A DNA stretch of 41,832 nucleotides from a virus. The stretch lies in IMG/VR virus record IMGVR_UViG_3300033149_001144, positions 1-41,832 of that record; one strand, written 5' to 3'. The position numbers and the translations under genes are program-made. Below, piece after piece: positions 1,980 through 41,832 of this stretch; within the stretch, counting starts at the first letter, position 1; each line of letters opens with the position of its first letter. The notes under the pieces were generated by a model. That model saw only the letters and a program-made list of their open reading frames with translations, had not been told where the DNA came from and searched no databases.

Positions 1980-2678
1980 ATGGGTACAGAACCAGATGGC
2001 AACAAGACTGGTGGTTCTAGTGGTGAGTCAGCTCAGACTACTCCTACTGCTCCTGAGCCAGAAGCTACACCTACTCCTGAGCCTACACCTGTAGCACCAA
2101 CTGCCAATGTAGAGATTCAGGATGGTAAGGTTGTAGTTGATGGTAAGAAGTTTGTAGCAGAGTCTGACTTGATAGCCGCTAAGAACAGCTTAGAGGGGAA
2201 GTTGACTGCACAGCAGGCGGCGCACGAGGCAGCTATAGATGCTGCTAGACTAGAGGTGTCTAATGCTCAGCAGACAATTGCCCAGCTAAACGCTAAAATC
2301 AAGGAGAACGAGGAAGCCCGTAAGTCGGGTGCAGTGACCAACGAGGAAGCTGCGAGTGTCAAGCAGGAACTGGAGGCTGCCAAGAGCAGTATAGCGGCTC
2401 TAGAGGCTGAGGCTAACAGAGCGCTAGAGTTGAGGAGAGCTAATCTTGTACTACAGTACGGGGTTGCTCCTGATACTATCAAAGACAAAGACATGAAAGC
2501 GCTTGACTCTTTTGAAGAAGCATTGAAGGCTGTATCTACAGCCAGAGGAAGCGGTGTAGGACCTTATGCTGTAGGTGGAGGAACTGGAGAAGCTGCTCCT
2601 ACAACTCCTATGGAGAGGGCGCAGAAGATACTGGAATCTACCCCAGTAAGAGGTGTGCGCAGCGCTCCTCAAACTTAG
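1980..2678 (+). CDS. Putative capsid scaffold protein
   Basis: This 232-residue protein is probably the internal scaffold that guides procapsid assembly. Residues 1-40 are a disordered Thr/Pro/Glu-rich tail, then comes a short beta-like segment (VEIQDGKVVVDGKKFV), and residues 60-155 are an Ala/Glu/Lys heptad-rich helix expected to form a coiled coil. It lies directly upstream of the major capsid gene, the usual place for a scaffold. The start has a strong GAGGAGG site 9-14 bases upstream and is the first gene of its transcript. No protease motif is visible, so it appears to be a scaffold only. The assignment rests on composition and position, not on a recognised family signature. Confidence 0.7.
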   Translation: MGTEPDGNKTGGSSGESAQTTPTAPEPEATPTPEPTPVAPTANVEIQDGKVVVDGKKFVAESDLIAAKNSLEGKLTAQQAAHEAAIDAARLEVSNAQQTIAQLNAKIKENEEARKSGAVTNEEAASVKQELEAAKSSIAALEAEANRALELRRANLVLQYGVAPDTIKDKDMKALDSFEEALKAVSTARGSGVGPYAVGGGTGEAAPTTPMERAQKILESTPVRGVRSAPQT

Positions 2679-2701
2679 AAATCTTTTGGAGGTAAAGTAA
2701 G

Positions 2702-3784
2702 ATGGCGGAATCTGGAGGACACTGGGCTAATTTGGCTGCTGCTCAAAAGCTAACGCAGTCAATGAAGATACCAGGTGTCTTTGAAGAAGATATTAAGCGC
2801 AATAACCCTTTAGAGCGGCTCACCGTAGGTCAGGCTGCTCACAGCGGACTCAAGATAGAATGGCTAAGAGAAAAGCCTTCCGCAGTAAGTGCTGTTGAGG
2901 CTGCTGTGGCTGATATAGATATAGGTGAGCAACTCTCCTGGTCAGAGGATGTAGACTACGAGGAGAAAGAGATGACTCTTCGCCGATGCTATATCCAGAG
3001 GAAACTTGACCACTTCCTGCCAGGTATCTACGGAACATACAACAACTATGAAGCAAGAATGCTTCTGGAGTGCGAGAAAGGGCTCAAGAGGAAGATAGGG
3101 GCTAGAATAATCTATGCCGACAACACCTATACCAGCTCTAAGCAGTTTGATGGTCTCCATGCCCTAGCTGCTGAGCACGGAGCTGCCTATGACACCTCTA
3201 ACCTCTCTAACGACCCTAAGAACATAGACAATGGCTCTGCTGGACTAAGCCTACACTATCTGAGAGTGCTGACAGATGCTATGCTTCATGGTATAGATGA
3301 AATCTGGGCTCCTTACGAAATCATCCGCTGGATGGATGCTGCCTATCAGGAGAAGGGTTTTGCTGGTCTTGCTTACGACTCGGCTGCCTCTCTCGGCTTC
3401 ATCACTATGGGCTACAATGACCTGGGTAAGCGGGTACTCTTCTGGGATGGTACTCCCATAGTCCGAACTGACTACCTTGTAGCCGAGCAGGCGGATACAG
3501 GTACTGGTGATTCGTCTGACGCTAGAGAACTCTACTCGGATGATAGAACCTTTAGCATATTCGCTGTCAAGCACGGTAATGTGCTGAATCAGGAGCCTGG
3601 TCTAACCTATGCATACGGCGGAACTGAGGGTCTGGGAGACCTGTATAAGCTAGTTCGCTTTCCAGAGCTAGAAGACTACGATGCAGGTGGTATCAGACTC
3701 GTTAACTACAGCGCTCTGTTACTAGGGTCAAGCCTGTGCCTGGGAAGAATCTTTGACGTAGACGACGTGGCAATAACTGTTTAA
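2702..3784 (+). CDS. Putative major capsid protein
   Basis: A 360-residue protein immediately after the scaffold, with the length and mixed alpha/beta composition expected of an HK97-fold shell protein. The N-terminal arm (about residues 1-50) is polar and helical. A charged segment containing WSEDVDYEEKEMTLRR (about 80-95) is followed by a long helix (NYEARMLLECEKGLKRKIGARI) that would fit the spine helix, and the C-terminal half contains the hydrophobic strands expected of the P and A domains. GGAGG lies 9 bases before the ATG. There is no obvious N-terminal prohead peptide. Assigned by position, size and fold-like pattern. Confidence 0.75.
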   Translation: MAESGGHWANLAAAQKLTQSMKIPGVFEEDIKRNNPLERLTVGQAAHSGLKIEWLREKPSAVSAVEAAVADIDIGEQLSWSEDVDYEEKEMTLRRCYIQRKLDHFLPGIYGTYNNYEARMLLECEKGLKRKIGARIIYADNTYTSSKQFDGLHALAAEHGAAYDTSNLSNDPKNIDNGSAGLSLHYLRVLTDAMLHGIDEIWAPYEIIRWMDAAYQEKGFAGLAYDSAASLGFITMGYNDLGKRVLFWDGTPIVRTDYLVAEQADTGTGDSSDARELYSDDRTFSIFAVKHGNVLNQEPGLTYAYGGTEGLGDLYKLVRFPELEDYDAGGIRLVNYSALLLGSSLCLGRIFDVDDVAITV

Positions 3785-9233: not shown

Positions 9234-11194
9234 TGCCAAAGATAAGACAAAGACATATATCAACAAGACCATCAGATGAGCCTATCCATACTAACCCAAC
9301 TGGCATGGACTTTGAAAAAAGGTCTATGCATATACCTGCTAGCTTTATCAAGGATGGTATGATAGATACTGTAGCTGCTAATAAGGTTATAGCCAGTATC
9401 CTGTCTGGAGCTACTTATGATGATGTTCAGGACTTCATGAACTTCTTCGGGAACAGAACATTTATATCTGGATGCACAATTACTCCCGTATCTCCCGCTG
9501 ACGGTACTGTGGATGTGGCTGCTGGTACTGCGTGGTGCAAGGAGTCTGACTCTGACACAGCAGTAGGTAGGTTCTTTGACTTTGCTGGTGAGTCTGCAAT
9601 AGAGCTAACAGATATGTCAGTGAATGTTCTTTATCTTGATTATAATGCTGGCTCTCCACAGATAGTGAAAGCTGATAGCGTATTAACTTATGGCTTCCAG
9701 CAAGACCATGTACTGCTTGGGGTAGTGTTTAGAGAAGGGAATGATACTCACATTCTACAGGCTGGTCATATAGGTATACAGGGCAGTAGCCGCTCTCACA
9801 TGATGAGAGTAGAGGAAGGAGCTAATAGGTCTAGTGGATTGATAACTACATCAGTAGGAACTCGCAATATTGCTGTAACTGCTGGTGTTATTCACCTTGG
9901 ACTTAATAGGGAAACTACTCCTCCTTACAGTACTCCTAACTCTGGAACTGCTGATGACACTGAGGCTTATAAACTGCATGATGCAGATGGTGGATTTGCT
10001 GAGACTGATGTAGGCAAGATAGTTCACAATACTACTGATGATACTTACACGGAAGTGGTAGCATATGTTGACAGTGGCGAGCTAACTCTTCGTGACGATA
10101 TATTTGTTAGTGGTGAGAACTATGACCTGGATATATTCACATACTGGTACTATGACGGAGACCTTGAAACTCCAGCATGGGTGGCAGTGAAGGGCTCTAC
10201 TGCTATTAGCAACTCTCAGTACAATGATGTGGATACTGGACTAGCAAATCTCACATCTAACAGGTACGGTGTTCACTGGGTCTTCATGGACTTTGACAGT
10301 CACATTCATGTTGTCTATGGACAGGGAGACTACACAGCAAATCAGGCTGAGCTTGTAGAGGTTCCTGGCTCACTACCGCCTATAGCTACAAGCTTTGCTG
10401 TCATAATAGCTAAGATTATCTGCCAGCAGGGGTCTGATACTCTAATCATCACATATCCTTGGGAACCTGTATTCAGGTCTTCACTAGCATCAGACCATGG
10501 AAGCCTGGGCGGACTGGCAGACGATGACCATACTCAGTACATAAAACACTCCCTAGCTACTGCAGCTAATGATTTCTTGGTAGCTTCAGGTTCTGGGACA
10601 TTTGTTAAGAAGACACTAGCAGAAGTTAAGACCATACTGGCGCTTGCAAGTGACTATATAGCAAAATCTCTAATGGATGCTAAGGGAGATATAATAGCAG
10701 CCAGCGGTGATAATACACCTGTCAGGGTTGCTGTAGGTGACGATGACAAAGTCCTGACTGCTGACTCTTCTGCTCCTGGTGGTGTTACTTGGGCTGACCC
10801 TATTCCTAAGGCTACTGACTGGAAAGGTAGCTTCAACTGGGATACGTCAGAATACACTACAGATGAGCAGGATATATCAGCTTTGTTCTCTACCAATCTG
10901 GCTGAGACAACTCGTAGGAAATACTCTGTCAAACTGGACCTGACAAGTGTAGAAGCAGATGGTAGTTTTGTATCCCTATATATTTCTGTTAAAGAAAAGA
11001 TAGACGGTACGAACTATAGAGCTATTGATAGAAAGCTAGTTGAAAAGGCTGACATCGCTGCGACTGCAGAGCCTGGGATTGTTATAGATATACCTGCTAC
11101 ATCTGAGAATATTCAGATTACAATGCAAATGACTATTGCTCTGGCAGATGATGCTACCATCTACTACGCTGTTGTGAAGGAGCATCTGGAATAA
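9233..11194 (+). CDS. Tail fibre protein
   Basis: A 653-residue protein with two motifs well known from phage tail fibres: HGSLGGLADDDHTQY near residue 420 and the AKGDIIAASGDNTPVRV ... KVLTADSSAPGGVTWAD segment near residues 480-520. The N-terminal part contains GCTITPVSPADGTVDVAAGTA, a common fibre-base pattern. The C-terminal domain (about 530-653) is beta-rich and may be the receptor-binding tip. The start is in TAATG overlap with the propeller gene and the stop overlaps the next ATG. Confidence 0.9.
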   Translation: MPKIRQRHISTRPSDEPIHTNPTGMDFEKRSMHIPASFIKDGMIDTVAANKVIASILSGATYDDVQDFMNFFGNRTFISGCTITPVSPADGTVDVAAGTAWCKESDSDTAVGRFFDFAGESAIELTDMSVNVLYLDYNAGSPQIVKADSVLTYGFQQDHVLLGVVFREGNDTHILQAGHIGIQGSSRSHMMRVEEGANRSSGLITTSVGTRNIAVTAGVIHLGLNRETTPPYSTPNSGTADDTEAYKLHDADGGFAETDVGKIVHNTTDDTYTEVVAYVDSGELTLRDDIFVSGENYDLDIFTYWYYDGDLETPAWVAVKGSTAISNSQYNDVDTGLANLTSNRYGVHWVFMDFDSHIHVVYGQGDYTANQAELVEVPGSLPPIATSFAVIIAKIICQQGSDTLIITYPWEPVFRSSLASDHGSLGGLADDDHTQYIKHSLATAANDFLVASGSGTFVKKTLAEVKTILALASDYIAKSLMDAKGDIIAASGDNTPVRVAVGDDDKVLTADSSAPGGVTWADPIPKATDWKGSFNWDTSEYTTDEQDISALFSTNLAETTRRKYSVKLDLTSVEADGSFVSLYISVKEKIDGTNYRAIDRKLVEKADIAATAEPGIVIDIPATSENIQITMQMTIALADDATIYYAVVKEHLE

Positions 11195-11772
11195 TGGCAA
11201 CCATAGTTGATAGTTATAGCGAATCCAATAAGGATACGCAAAGTACCGTAAGCAAAGTCCATCCGTCAAGTGAGATTTATGTCTCTGCTTTTGGTCAATC
11301 GTTTACTGGTGATGGTAAAAGGCTAGTTAGCTGCAAGTTTTATATCAAAAGGACATTAGGAACTCCAGGGAACTTGATTGCTCGTCTATATGCTCACTCG
11401 GGTACGTTTGGTACTAGCAGTGTACCTACAGGTACAGCCTTGGATAGTAGTAACTTAGTGGCTGCTAGTAGTATCAGTGACTCAATCTTTGAGTTGGTTA
11501 CGTTTGTAGGTTTTTCAGGTTACACCTTAGCTAACGGAACACACTATTGCATTGTCTTTGAAGCCTATGACGGTACTTGGGATACCAATAACTATGTTCA
11601 AGGCGGAAGGGATGGTAGTAGCCCAACACACGCTGGCAATTATTGTTACTGGCGTGAGAGCGGTTGGAACGCTCACGCTAGCGATGCTTGTTTCTATGTT
11701 TATGGGTCGGCACTCCCTAGTCCAGTGGCTGATGGAGACTTAATAGGAATTGGAGTAATAAGAAAAACGTAA
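11194..11772 (+). CDS. Carbohydrate-binding-like virion protein, 192 residues
   Basis: This protein reads as a single beta-sandwich: AFGQSFTGDGKRLVSCKFYIKR, then LIARLYAHSGTFG, then FSGYTLANGTHYCIVFEA and a final strand CFYVYGS. The order resembles the choice-of-anchor or CBM-like domains found in phage and bacterial surface proteins that bind sugars. It follows the tail fibre with a coupled start, so it may be an accessory adhesin of the tail. The exact family is uncertain. Confidence 0.65.
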   Translation: MATIVDSYSESNKDTQSTVSKVHPSSEIYVSAFGQSFTGDGKRLVSCKFYIKRTLGTPGNLIARLYAHSGTFGTSSVPTGTALDSSNLVAASSISDSIFELVTFVGFSGYTLANGTHYCIVFEAYDGTWDTNNYVQGGRDGSSPTHAGNYCYWRESGWNAHASDACFYVYGSALPSPVADGDLIGIGVIRKT

Positions 11773-22382: not shown

Positions 22383-22453
22383 GCTATCTTCCTTCATTCT
22401 CCAGAGGGAGCTTACTAGTGCGAGACAAGCCCGTCCTCAAATTACTGTTTACT

Positions 22454-22713
22454 GGCTCTGGGGATAGCGTCCTTCCTTCAGTTTCTCTGTTATCTGTGGC
22501 TCCACACCCCCAGAGCCTTACCTGAGCCTACACCCACCTAAACGCTTGATAGCAATCCCCTTTTTGCTATCCAATCCTACCTCGGCTCAGACTTCCTGCC
22601 AGCTAGTAGCCACGATAAGAACTACCTCGCTATTACCCTTTCGGGTAGCTGGCAGGCTTGCTGGCTTCGTTTTAGCGACATTAACTCCCTTTTTACAGGA
22701 GACACCAGCAAGC
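22454..22713 (-). ncRNA. Candidate structured RNA: four consecutive stem-loops
   Basis: The 330-base gap between two left-going genes folds as four stem-loops placed end to end. Perfect helices are 22656-22664/22705-22713, 22595-22605/22646-22656, 22522-22528/22584-22590 (enclosing 22548-22555/22564-22571) and 22454-22463/22508-22517. On the minus strand, inside the second, UACCC-GAAA-GGGUA (22634-22647) forms a GNRA tetraloop hairpin. The unit lengths are 58-69 nt and the gaps 0-4 nt. No tRNA T-arm signature is present and no long reading frame fits. It may be a regulatory leader of the nuclease gene or a separate RNA. Confidence 0.65.
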
Positions 22714-22729: not shown

Positions 22730-23506
22730 TTATGCTGCTGCCTCTGCTACTACCTTGTGAAATACGCCTGACTCATCCTGGGTAAACTTGCCTGCTGTTA
22801 CCATAGCGTTAGCAAATGAGTTTGGGGCAGTAGGTGGTAAGCTAATAGCCTGTAACAGGTCAGTGTCATTCCTGACAACTGGATTAGCAAGAGCTGCTGA
22901 GTTAAAATCAGCCAGCGTCTTACCATCCAGTAGACTCATAGCTAAGTCCATAGCGCTTGTGCCCTCTCCTCCAGCTGTACCGACTCCTTCTATCTCATAC
23001 ACTGTCCATGCTGGTGTAGGTCTATCAGCACCTGTCCTTCCATCAAACAAGTCCATAGGCTCAGGTCTACCATCTTCACCGTCTGTTAGAACCATTCCTA
23101 TCCTCTTGCCTATACAAGTCTTAATATCCATCCTGTCTGTTGGCTTGATATAGTTGGCATTAGTTGGGTCAAGTTGCTCTGCGGTGTACTGCTGGTCGGC
23201 TACGTTATTGAAGCCAACTGTGCGGTCCTTGGGAGTTCCCTCGGATAGCACTCCCCAGCGAGACTTTTTCCTGTTAGACTGGGACATCATTAGAGTGACT
23301 ATTGGAAAGTGATAAGGCTCTACAGCCTCCTTTACATCTATGTCCTTGAAGTTTAGGCTGACTCGGGTAGTTTCTCTTGCTCCTTCCCCTTCTCCAAATG
23401 TCTGTTTCTCCGTAGGCATACTGTCAAGTATTCCAGTAAACCTCCGTAGAGGACCTAGCTCAGCGTCTATAAGTCCTCTGGTGCTTATCATTGTTTCTTC
23501 TGCCAT
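22730..23506 (-). CDS. Probable DNA-metabolism protein, possible ssDNA-binding protein
   Basis: A 258-residue protein translated from GGAG 7 bases upstream. A beta-rich first half (LRRFTGILDSM, RVSLNFKDIDV, FPIVTLMMSQ, CIGKRIGMVLTDG) could form an OB-like domain, followed by an acidic, Ala/Asp-rich helical tail. Highly expressed phage ssDNA-binding proteins often stand next to Sak4-type recombinases, as here, and have acidic tails. This gene is the first large product of a strong promoter. No family motif is certain. Confidence 0.6.
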   Translation of the reverse strand: MAEETMISTRGLIDAELGPLRRFTGILDSMPTEKQTFGEGEGARETTRVSLNFKDIDVKEAVEPYHFPIVTLMMSQSNRKKSRWGVLSEGTPKDRTVGFNNVADQQYTAEQLDPTNANYIKPTDRMDIKTCIGKRIGMVLTDGEDGRPEPMDLFDGRTGADRPTPAWTVYEIEGVGTAGGEGTSAMDLAMSLLDGKTLADFNSAALANPVVRNDTDLLQAISLPPTAPNSFANAMVTAGKFTQDESGVFHKVVAEAAA

Positions 23507-23633: not shown

Positions 23634-23663
23634 ATTATACCATAAAGGTGATACTCTTGTCAA
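23634..23663 (-). promoter_or_regulatory. Left-going promoter for the recombination/polymerase operon
   Basis: TTGACA (23658-23663), an 18-nt spacer and TATAAT (23634-23639), with TGG just before the -10, giving an extended -10. It appears to drive the long operon from 23.6 kb down to the polymerase gene. Confidence 0.9.
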
Positions 23664-29769: not shown

Positions 29770-29997
29770 CTAGCTCAAGCTCAAAGGGTAGCGATTGCAT
29801 CTTGGGCATCTCATGCCCTCAAAGTCCCCCGAGTTATTGTATCCACAATGGTTACAGATCCAGTCGGGATGTGAGATGTTGGGAAAGCGTTCCATAATCT
29901 CGCCTGCGTCGCCGTTCTCGTTCAATGCCAAATATACATCTTGAAGCATGCGAAACATGTCTTTGTATGTCTTGACCTCAATCGGTATTGTTACCAT
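29770..29997 (-). CDS. 75-residue zinc-finger protein, island gene 2
   Basis: A small protein with a helical N-terminal half (YKDMFRMLQDVYLALNENGD) and a zinc site made from CNHCGYNN (about 48-55) and CPRC (about 64-67). It has its own promoter (30098-30126), and GAGG lies 9 bases before the ATG. Like its two island neighbours it uses more C- and G-ending codons than the backbone genes. Unknown function. Confidence 0.75.
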   Translation of the reverse strand: MVTIPIEVKTYKDMFRMLQDVYLALNENGDAGEIMERFPNISHPDWICNHCGYNNSGDFEGMRCPRCNRYPLSLS

Positions 29998-30097
29998 ATT
30001 TACACCTCGTGCAATTAACCCCTCGGGACAGCACCCAGCACCAAAGCATATTCAATTGTTAATGTTCTCGGCATGACCCGTATGGTCTACCATGTAT

Positions 30098-40000: not shown

Positions 40001-41832
40001 TGAGAGAATACATGATTACAGGAAGTTAACAGAACTCAGGAAAGCCAAGCTTGACCCAGCTGAGATGGATGCCTTTGAGGTAGGCTCAGCTAAGCTGCTA
40101 GCGGAGTTTATGGAGACAGCTGAGGCAGACTTAACTAGGATAATGAATCAGTTGGTAAAGAATGCCACTGAGCCAGCTGTTGAGAGAATGATGCCTTACC
40201 AGTGGCGACCTCTTGCTGAATATCTATCTAGTAGACCCGAGTACTCTAGTATTCATAACTTTCTAGAGTTATACTCAAGACTAGCTATTGAGGGTAAGGA
40301 ATTTCCTACTAACCTTGTGAACAGACTGTTTGACTACGTAGCAGATACTAAGGATAGAATTATAGAATCTAGAGCTAGACACGATTTATATACTTGGACA
40401 GACTCATCTCTTAGTGCCATAGATGATGCGCTCAAGAGTGGCAGCAGACTTGATAAAGTTATAGCTATAGATATCTTTGCTCAGGCTTCTCATCAGGACA
40501 TAATGTGGCTGCCTGATATACTTGCTAGGGTAGAGAAGCCTGATGCTAAGTTGCAAGGACTGGTTAGGGATGTATTCAATAATCTGCAAGAGGGTAGACT
40601 GACTAAGCAAATGATGGGAGGAGCTGGACTTAATGAGGCTCAGCTAGCTCGTCTTACTGACCTTGACTCTATCACTCGTCTTGAGCTTGAGAACATTTTA
40701 TCAACTCGCAACAAGATAGCTGAGATAGAATCAATCATACCCAGAACTCCTAAGAAAGCTAGAAATGACCGCTTCTGGGCTCATCAGCGGGCTCAGAAGG
40801 CTGCCATCTGGGATGAGTTTGATAGCAATGCTAGGAAGTTTAAGGCTCTTAGGCTAAGGGCTAGCCGTAGCTTCCTCAACTCTGTAGACAAAACAGTATT
40901 CACTCCTGACTATATACCTGAGGTAGTTACAGAGCTAACTCCTAATCATCTAGCTTATCTATATGGCTGTACTGGAGATGACTTATATAGAGGACTTACT
41001 AGAGTTCAGCATCATGTAACTATTCGTCCAAGAGAAGATTTCATCTTACACACTGTAGAGCAGGCAGATGCTTATGCTGCTAAGCTTGGTAAGACAGCTG
41101 CCGACATAGGCTTTACTGATGAGGCTATCGGAGAAGTATATGACCAGTTGTGGAGAAATCTTGGAGTAGAGCCTACAATACTAACTCCTGATAGTCCTAC
41201 AGTAATGCAGCTGGAGGAGATAAGGCAGGAGCTAACTAGGCTTCATGCTGCTAATAAGATACCAGAATCTGACATAGTAAAGTGGCGTCAGTATATCAAC
41301 TCAGTGGCAGATGAGGTAGAGAAACTGCCAATGTACAGGAGGCAGTTTAGGGTAGAGGAGCCCACTAGAAATGTTATGAAAACTACTAGGGAGTACTGGG
41401 ATACTCATCTAGAGCGCAATCCTCTACGTACTATGCCTGGCGGACCTGACACTGATGCGGGTGCTTTTCTGGCTCATCAAATAGAAGCTGCTGGAGATAT
41501 ACTGAGGGAATCTGCTAAAGCCACTCCTGACCCAGGATATATTTTTGAAAAGTTTAATAGGATTAAGAATAATATAAAGTTCAGAGACTGGACTGACCCT
41601 CTAAGCACTAAGGAATTAGGGCATCTCAGTACTGTGAAAGGCTTACTGAAGGACCTACCTGCTACTAATCCTCTTGAGCGAGACATAAAGGAGGTGCTAG
41701 GATATATAGTAGATAGGAATACTAGGGCGATATCTGACAAACTACCAAGTTTCAGAACAGCTTTGGAGGCTCTTAAGCCAGCTAGGGAAGTTGAACTTGG
41801 TAGAATAGGAACTCCTGAATGGTGGTCTTCCA
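37017..41832 (+). CDS. Giant virion-type protein, N-terminal part (continues at base 1)
   Basis: The start is ATG 37017 in TAATG overlap with the portal stop. I translated the frame to the right edge and found no stop; it continues in phase through the repeat to the TAA at 1907, giving 2,202 residues. The first 300 residues are charged and helical. About 330-500 contain Gly/Ala-rich hydrophobic stretches (DPVSYIGLGVATSIGYKLGA, VLSPVKGAFWLTGAGYQIPR) that could insert in membranes. The middle is helical with Lys/Glu-rich coiled-coil segments. I see no peptidase, lysozyme or polymerase motif. Giant proteins next to portals are often internal proteins ejected with DNA; this is inference. Confidence 0.88.
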   Translation, partial: MPEPIAEVSEYAKKILEEKGIEVPEPGKPVTVPPVEIPEYFPGFRKELAQLGVEEYKARARFTEAKRERTRIEQLGRIRLQGFRPLETAVIPAGGGFMREEDYENQLQQAMQEWDLAIQALHAAEWKQEVMILGEGFISIPDYKIEKAEDLLNYIVADVPLRDEDIVWLEHFYDRMKYRSNLLPEGFDGDAIEAQTKVLDEILTAPKLELRAVHNLTVEEIAKSFAFGVAELPQGMTEEQVRGMLSKMELQDEEMKSAKEWLSDRAKNWAIESDRLNLIRAGTVMAEAPELTPLEFGKLLVTQPMMAMVHALDKYFNFLPRPLASAAIIGAHRLFKTPEDTAAARLEEQYEYYRSMGESSWSAYAKAFNDWDVPWYGKLGAELFFDPVSYIGLGVATSIGYKLGAGLTKVGLRGLGTRIGPWVGAIENGYVAGADAIFKAGVQVVLSPVKGAFWLTGAGYQIPRTFTMMARNFARDSYMKLSSVLQRTYPEVRNLKGLTAKDAIDAATNAIDQAVTRPMEGWDAAVRAGAPMMEFNYIDEAAAIKLTKEIAEEVTFDTNRLAHINNEVLNMFSGQGERVTAGKILADLGQEATEEMVDKLSAKLVAFRQKVADTAKAALKGDSASDVLMGVFNRLEEIRYNNLHSPLTRYMTQSGRSASWHSRVADRILYSSALVAMERRLVMPIARWNLLFANFGPFNFLENMQRSFLGGAEMLYPKSYSGVAETNRLFKGLTNAPYELQMFERGEARLAQAVVDPKTGRTAVFKGGKVPFITREVHIPEKVPFLGGKTIGAKMNIAGRDHYLASFQDAYDMWAHFNAMQTAYDYQVHYMKALAEIAPDDMRSLTEVLAKHRSRLDDIAAIHPSDARDIERVLLADSTVGPEAVRAHSKLDVLEFERRQISKELGKTFDKCTDVRMTTKKGIRDEVLDGSIFEDIDGRIAAYVEQERELSLVSLKNQINVLKDEADAFIANPPRNLDDFLGDMQNISAMVEGTGERIHDYRKLTELRKAKLDPAEMDAFEVGSAKLLAEFMETAEADLTRIMNQLVKNATEPAVERMMPYQWRPLAEYLSSRPEYSSIHNFLELYSRLAIEGKEFPTNLVNRLFDYVADTKDRIIESRARHDLYTWTDSSLSAIDDALKSGSRLDKVIAIDIFAQASHQDIMWLPDILARVEKPDAKLQGLVRDVFNNLQEGRLTKQMMGGAGLNEAQLARLTDLDSITRLELENILSTRNKIAEIESIIPRTPKKARNDRFWAHQRAQKAAIWDEFDSNARKFKALRLRASRSFLNSVDKTVFTPDYIPEVVTELTPNHLAYLYGCTGDDLYRGLTRVQHHVTIRPREDFILHTVEQADAYAAKLGKTAADIGFTDEAIGEVYDQLWRNLGVEPTILTPDSPTVMQLEEIRQELTRLHAANKIPESDIVKWRQYINSVADEVEKLPMYRRQFRVEEPTRNVMKTTREYWDTHLERNPLRTMPGGPDTDAGAFLAHQIEAAGDILRESAKATPDPGYIFEKFNRIKNNIKFRDWTDPLSTKELGHLSTVKGLLKDLPATNPLERDIKEVLGYIVDRNTRAISDKLPSFRTALEALKPAREVELGRIGTPEWWSS
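41719..41832. repeat. Terminal direct repeat, right copy
   Basis: Identical to bases 1-114. It shows that the right edge joins the left edge, with the giant gene reading through without a change of phase. Confidence 0.95.

Follow-up and report, generated by a model that had tools for sequence, protein, structure and literature searches.

The window, a stretch of 41,832 nt spanning positions 1 to 41,832 of the IMG/VR virus record IMGVR_UViG_3300033149_001144, carries an exact 114-bp direct terminal repeat (1–114 and 41719–41832), so that the 41.8-kb record probably represents a whole phage genome, assembled as a closed circle. Between the genes of a 258-aa protein and a Cas4-like nuclease, a 332-nt gap is filled by four tandem stem-closed modules that run in the direction of the flanking genes, hereafter labelled U1–U4 from 5′ to 3′ on the minus strand. 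In that direction, the locus comprises:

23634..23663, minus strand: sigma-70 promoter-like site by sequence match (12/12, extended −10), preceding both the 258-aa gene and the array
22730..23506, minus strand: gene of the 258-aa protein, to which no function is assigned
22656..22713, minus strand: module U1 (type a), 9-bp stem GCTTGCTGG/CCAGCAAGC (as RNA GCUUGCUGG/CCAGCAAGC), followed 5′ to 3′ by a hairpin CUCC/GGGAG, UUAAUG, a small hairpin and GCC
22595..22656, minus strand: module U2, 11-bp stem CCTGCCAGCTA/TAGCTGGCAGG (as RNA CCUGCCAGCUA/UAGCUGGCAGG), enclosing the GNRA hairpin UACCCGAAAGGGUA
22522..22590, minus strand: module U3, 7-bp stem CTGAGCC/GGCTCAG (as RNA CUGAGCC/GGCUCAG), enclosing an 8-bp hairpin GATAGCAA/TTGCTATC (as RNA GAUAGCAA/UUGCUAUC)
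22454..22517, minus strand: module U4, 10-bp stem GGCTCTGGGG/CCCCAGAGCC (as RNA GGCUCUGGGG/CCCCAGAGCC)
22398..22416, minus strand: 3′ flank GCUCCCUCUGGAG; a similar flank appears by eye to pair with the 5′ flank around a lone module in loci L001, L011 and L018
21675..22397, minus strand: gene of a 240-aa Cas4/PD-(D/E)XK-like nuclease (weak PADLOC Cas4 match, E = 4e-5)

The array occupies 22454–22713, and its closing stems of 9, 11, 7 and 10 bp are perfect. An earlier note on this DNA had described four perfect helices of 7–11 bp around nearly gapless units of 58–69 nt, the third enclosing an 8-bp hairpin, together with a UACCC-GAAA-GGGUA hairpin restricted to the left-going strand; all of these are present, the last on the minus strand only. 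A chain of four perfect helices totalling 37 bp is matched by 0 of 3000 dinucleotide shuffles, and even two chained helices by only 18 of 3000, which excludes a chance origin. Individually, U1 folds with z = −4.0 (0 of 200 shuffles as good) and U4 with z = −4.1. Folding energy of the whole region is better on the antisense strand (z = −4.9 plus, −2.4 minus), so energy alone cannot tell the functional strand. The same note saw neither a convincing gene nor tRNA features here, and we agree: the longest open reading frames overlapping the gap encode 79 aa (plus strand) and 29 aa (minus strand), and the array shows no tRNA features.

In isolate phage records, neither the array DNA nor either flanking protein finds a match, and the DNA polymerase and terminase have only distant relatives. 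The 258-aa family is the commonest gene upstream of arrays (17 of about 60); its AlphaFold model is too poor to use (pLDDT 54). In locus L001, the match to this protein (2245–3000) contains an in-frame stop, so that copy may be broken or end early. The 240-aa nuclease-like protein has no Pfam or PHROG match, and no toxin emerges from a PADLOC scan of the ten neighbours in the window, whose two hits are the Cas4-like nuclease and, marginally, PycTM (E = 0.008).

The two flanking proteins, used as IMG/VR queries independently of the RNA, gave 12 and 17 loci, the gaps of which mostly hold one to four stem-closed hairpins of about 50–100 nt each. In most of these gaps, the best helix outscores nearly all shuffles; the automatically chosen helix is not significant in L001, L007, L009, L011 and L020, and only weakly significant in L024 and L027. 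The stem persists among these relatives while its sequence varies, as in AGAGAGCUUGCUAGAG/CUCUAGCAAGCUCUCU (L012), GGGAGCUUGCCAG/CUGGCAGGCUCCC (L018), GGAUGCUGGC/GCCAGCAUCC (L021) and GUCUGGCAG/CUGCCAGAC (L022).

Pattern scans of IMG/VR with the class ends, combined with covariance searches and manual parsing, yield 63 distinct placements of arrays, spread over 59 phage loci. Modules of about 50–120 nt fall into four classes in the order U1–U2–U3–U4, each of which may be single, combined, missing or duplicated, up to the seven modules of L033 (U1 U1 U1 U2 U3 U3 U4), and some genomes carry more than one array, at several places. The class ends were fixed by the queries, with interiors and outer stems left free, and conservation of the ends is therefore not counted as evidence; likewise, the search patterns largely dictate the invariance of closing stems in alignments A1, A2 and A4, which we discount as a sign of conservation. 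Among about 85,000 species genomes, the U2 pattern has zero matches and the U1 pattern 53, apparently by chance, in GC-rich coding DNA. With the U1 covariance model, no chance match in bacterial genomes exceeds 33 bits, as opposed to most phage U1 type-b modules, which reach 34–63 bits; the model was trained on 22 of these modules. The family is common in uncultivated phages.

Compensatory changes, which the earlier note had named as one way to check its candidate RNA, occur in closing stems as well as inner helices. In U1 type b (22 sequences), an inner helix CGG(N)/(N)CCG shows C-G, U-A and A-U at one position, with a covariation score that none of 500 shuffles attains; in U1 type a (L033, L040 and L054), pairing is 100%, with three compensatory inner pairs. 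The U2 allele trio L002/L096/L069 has four compensatory pairs across two helices, the stem and an inner one. In the outer stem of U4, three positions next to the GGGG/CCCC core pair in 95–100% of 19 phage units, using 2–4 Watson–Crick types each, and U4 of L005 has the compensatory stem GGGACUGGGG/CCCCAGUCCC. In L011, a close relative of the window phage, the U1 covariance model uncovered a copy missed by every pattern, closed by GGUGG/CCACC instead of GCUGG/CCAGC. It belongs to a second array (11030–11490), about 2.3 kb from the first, where neighbouring U3-like modules use the stem CUGAAGC/GGCUUCAG; cores are retained in this array and closing stems altered. Together, these changes indicate that closing stems and inner helices form real secondary structure. 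An H-type pseudoknot inside U1 type b looked convincing by eye; its pairing is no better than that of permuted partners (fraction 0.14; variable part 0.87), and we therefore do not claim it.

Whole-locus blastn comparisons reveal a second property of the modules: a module with a few flanking bases can be the sole match between otherwise unalignable phages. Such pairs share U2 (L031 with L099 at 93% identity, L075 with L099, L002 with L096, L096 with L069, and L070 with L085), U3 (the window with L054, 88%) or U1a (L033 with L054). Conversely, L005 and L006 are 98–99% identical over about 8 kb, yet they carry completely different U1 interiors, the identity breaking off at the closing stem. Modules are thus gained, lost, duplicated and swapped as single cassettes between phages. 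On the reverse strand of L090 (about 2250–2560), a stretch of about 75 nt (CTAAGGATACTGTCTAGGCAGTACC...AGTAGTGGGGTG) precedes each of two U4-like units, which may reflect a module duplicated recently.

Perfect inverted repeats with exchange breaks at module boundaries could also mark an element acting as DNA, namely a replication origin, a single-strand hairpin origin or a recombination site, and the neighbours are often recombination-like: besides the 258-aa gene, frequent upstream neighbours are what we take, from sequence rather than profile tests, to be ERF-, RecT- or integrase-like proteins. Such an element is highly improbable given that arrays run in the direction of their neighbouring genes in 61 of 62 cases (genes of at least 120 aa), that the motifs are strand-specific, that a boxA-like motif is associated with them and that some genomes hold more than one array. 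At stem ends, G-U outnumbers A-C, as expected of an RNA strand, but only modestly (17 to 10 in U1, 7 to 4 in U3 and no excess in U2). The earlier suggestion of an origin element is accordingly not favoured, because of the gene co-direction, the several sites per genome and the boxA-like motif that can precede the arrays.

Similar to phage tRNA arrays, in which tandem 60–90 nt units with short closing stems are horizontally exchanged, the modules are tandem closed-stem units that move between phages, here without tRNA features. Rfam 15 gives no covariance-model match at or above the gathering threshold in the window, and a single match in 15 array loci, a tRNA in L062 that lies outside the array; permissive scans return chance-level scores or nothing. 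A group II intron fragment was hinted at by the stretches GAAAGCCGAAAGGC and GGGUGUAAGUCCC, and is rejected because neither the window nor the array loci match an Rfam group II model. In L037 (3700–4200, reverse strand), unusual modules combine GCCUGCCC/GGGCAGG stems and GCCGAAAGC...GAUAGGC cores; this array also contains a GGGGUGUAAGUCCC stretch that recalls group II introns, again with no Rfam match. No description of such RNAs was found in the open-access literature searched. GOLLD and ROOL are also structured noncoding RNAs of phages to which no function is assigned (PMC12286853), but they are single RNAs of several hundred nucleotides, whereas here arrays consist of independently exchanged modules and give no covariance match. 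The earlier idea of an undescribed phage structured RNA thus survives, on the strength of the compensatory changes and the empty Rfam search, although not as one fixed four-hairpin RNA, since modules occur singly, recombined, duplicated and swapped. That the modules constitute a structured, exchangeable family of phage RNAs is almost certain; what appears to be new is this family and its modular, cassette-like organization.

The arrays sit in diverse contexts, with more than 50 different neighbour settings, and most, including that of the window, lie within operons without their own promoter. They occupy the space between a stop codon and a Shine–Dalgarno sequence, with an upstream gap of 4–36 nt in 21 of 37 cases, and U4 is mostly the final module ahead of the ribosome-binding site. 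This placement is what a cis-acting element of the mRNA would show, whether a riboswitch-like leader, a translational control element or spacers that stabilize or process polycistronic mRNA. We consider this quite improbable: the neighbours are too varied, conservation of the interior motifs exceeds the needs of mRNA protection, and L062 has a stand-alone array gene, with a predicted transcript of about 370 nt formed by an 11/12 promoter with TG, four modules and an intrinsic terminator. The riboswitch-like leader raised in the earlier note loses favour for two of these reasons, the wide variety of neighbour genes and the promoter and terminator of the L062 array. All promoters and terminators described here are sequence predictions.

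Directly before the first module, 18 of 27 sites have the 14-nt motif TTAACAAYTGAATA, one mismatch being allowed; random stretches contain the stem-arm pattern used for this count in 3.9% of cases. The motif resembles the boxA of Escherichia coli, TGCTCTTTAACA, and its 5′ half, like free-standing copies (GCACCTTAACAA), resembles the boxA of rRNA operons. On this sequence similarity, we call the motif boxA-like; it lies 0–8 nt upstream of many arrays. It does not adjoin the array of the window, where a free-standing copy is found elsewhere:

30126-30098, minus strand: predicted consensus promoter TTGACA-17-TATAAT, upstream of the boxA-like leader
30049..30062, minus strand: free-standing boxA-like motif TTAACAATTGAATA in a leader that may form hairpins and precedes a small gene with its start near 29996

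Where a boxA precedes long noncoding RNAs or CRISPR arrays, it is reported to improve polymerase processivity (PMC7862264), and boxA prevents the Rho-dependent repression that an inserted long noncoding stretch provokes (PMC4807359). As with boxA/nut sites and boxA-led CRISPR or rRNA transcripts, the putative boxA stands just before a long untranslated structured RNA; unlike in those cases, no boxB hairpin, rRNA or CRISPR repeats follow. On the basis of these published effects, we read the boxA-like motif as protecting the untranslated array, and the modules as the product.

The main and a close rival is cis-acting antitermination of the put or nut type, in which the nascent modules, with or without boxA and NusB–NusE, would load on RNA polymerase and carry it past terminators of the early operon, as in HK022 put and lambda nut. 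The put RNA of HK022 is about 70 nt long, with two stem-loops downstream of early promoters (PMC9378689); the arrays are tandem stem-loops on the coding strand of phage operons, whatever gene lies downstream. The boxA-like motif precedes many arrays and also occurs in a promoter-proximal leader, and two loci have a suggestive order, with a boxA-like motif, U2, a terminator-like hairpin and a gene in L079, and a promoter, U2, a weak terminator-like hairpin and a gene in L090. Set against the description of put, with two stem-loops that act on RNA polymerase, the arrays have one to seven modules, which belong to four classes and can be exchanged. An element whose partner is the conserved RNA polymerase would not be expected to number up to seven modules, to diverge strongly in its interiors or to be exchanged as cassettes, and the array of L062 is bounded by its own promoter and strong terminator. 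Antitermination in cis is a credible if rather unlikely explanation.

The reading we prefer as a whole, with a probability of roughly 0.4, is that the modules are a new family of phage noncoding RNAs that act in trans, are transcribed under Nus-type antitermination and may serve as counter-defence decoys. RNA polymerase would transcribe the modules together with the early operon or, as in L062, from a promoter of their own, and boxA-bound Nus factors would keep it from halting inside the untranslated array, in line with proposals for rRNA and CRISPR arrays. Every module would fold alone, aided by the differing closing stems of its neighbours, and bind a host or phage partner. Module swapping and differences in repertoire suggest a partner that changes between hosts, for example a defence protein, which makes RNA decoys in the manner of phage pseudo-ToxI the leading guess.

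Type III antitoxin repeats are near-identical pseudoknots of 34–45 nt, and the type III antitoxin RNAs (ToxI, CptI and TenpI), the pseudo-ToxI of phages and the arrays have tandem RNA units in common. Unlike ToxI-type repeats, adjacent modules here are of different classes, 50–120 nt long, with class-specific closing stems; a pseudoknot is unsupported in U1 type b, and no toxin gene is recognized among the ten neighbours in the window. Phages can carry such tandem repeats as mimics that neutralize a defence toxin (PMC5086642).

The step from an RNA family to a trans-acting decoy is inferential. Action in trans rather than in cis is tentative, at somewhat less than even odds, and a counter-defence role is on balance unlikely. 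Operon-internal arrays without their own promoter suit a cis role equally well, the arrangements in L079 and L090 look cis-regulatory, independent trans-acting modules would not require the fixed order U1–U2–U3–U4, and the array of the window has no adjoining boxA-like motif. A still more specific picture, which we consider rather unlikely, is an integron-like accessory repertoire of RNA, with autonomous cassettes recombined singly at short closing stems, transcribed under Nus-type antitermination and directed in trans at host partners that change, such as defence systems.

If their action is in trans, functional RNAs pass between phages as cassettes, akin to anti-defence genes, in a layer invisible to gene-based annotation; if it is in cis, antitermination or leader RNAs would gain a large new class. 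In both cases, the family has a clear anatomy and offers testable units of about 53–120 nt.
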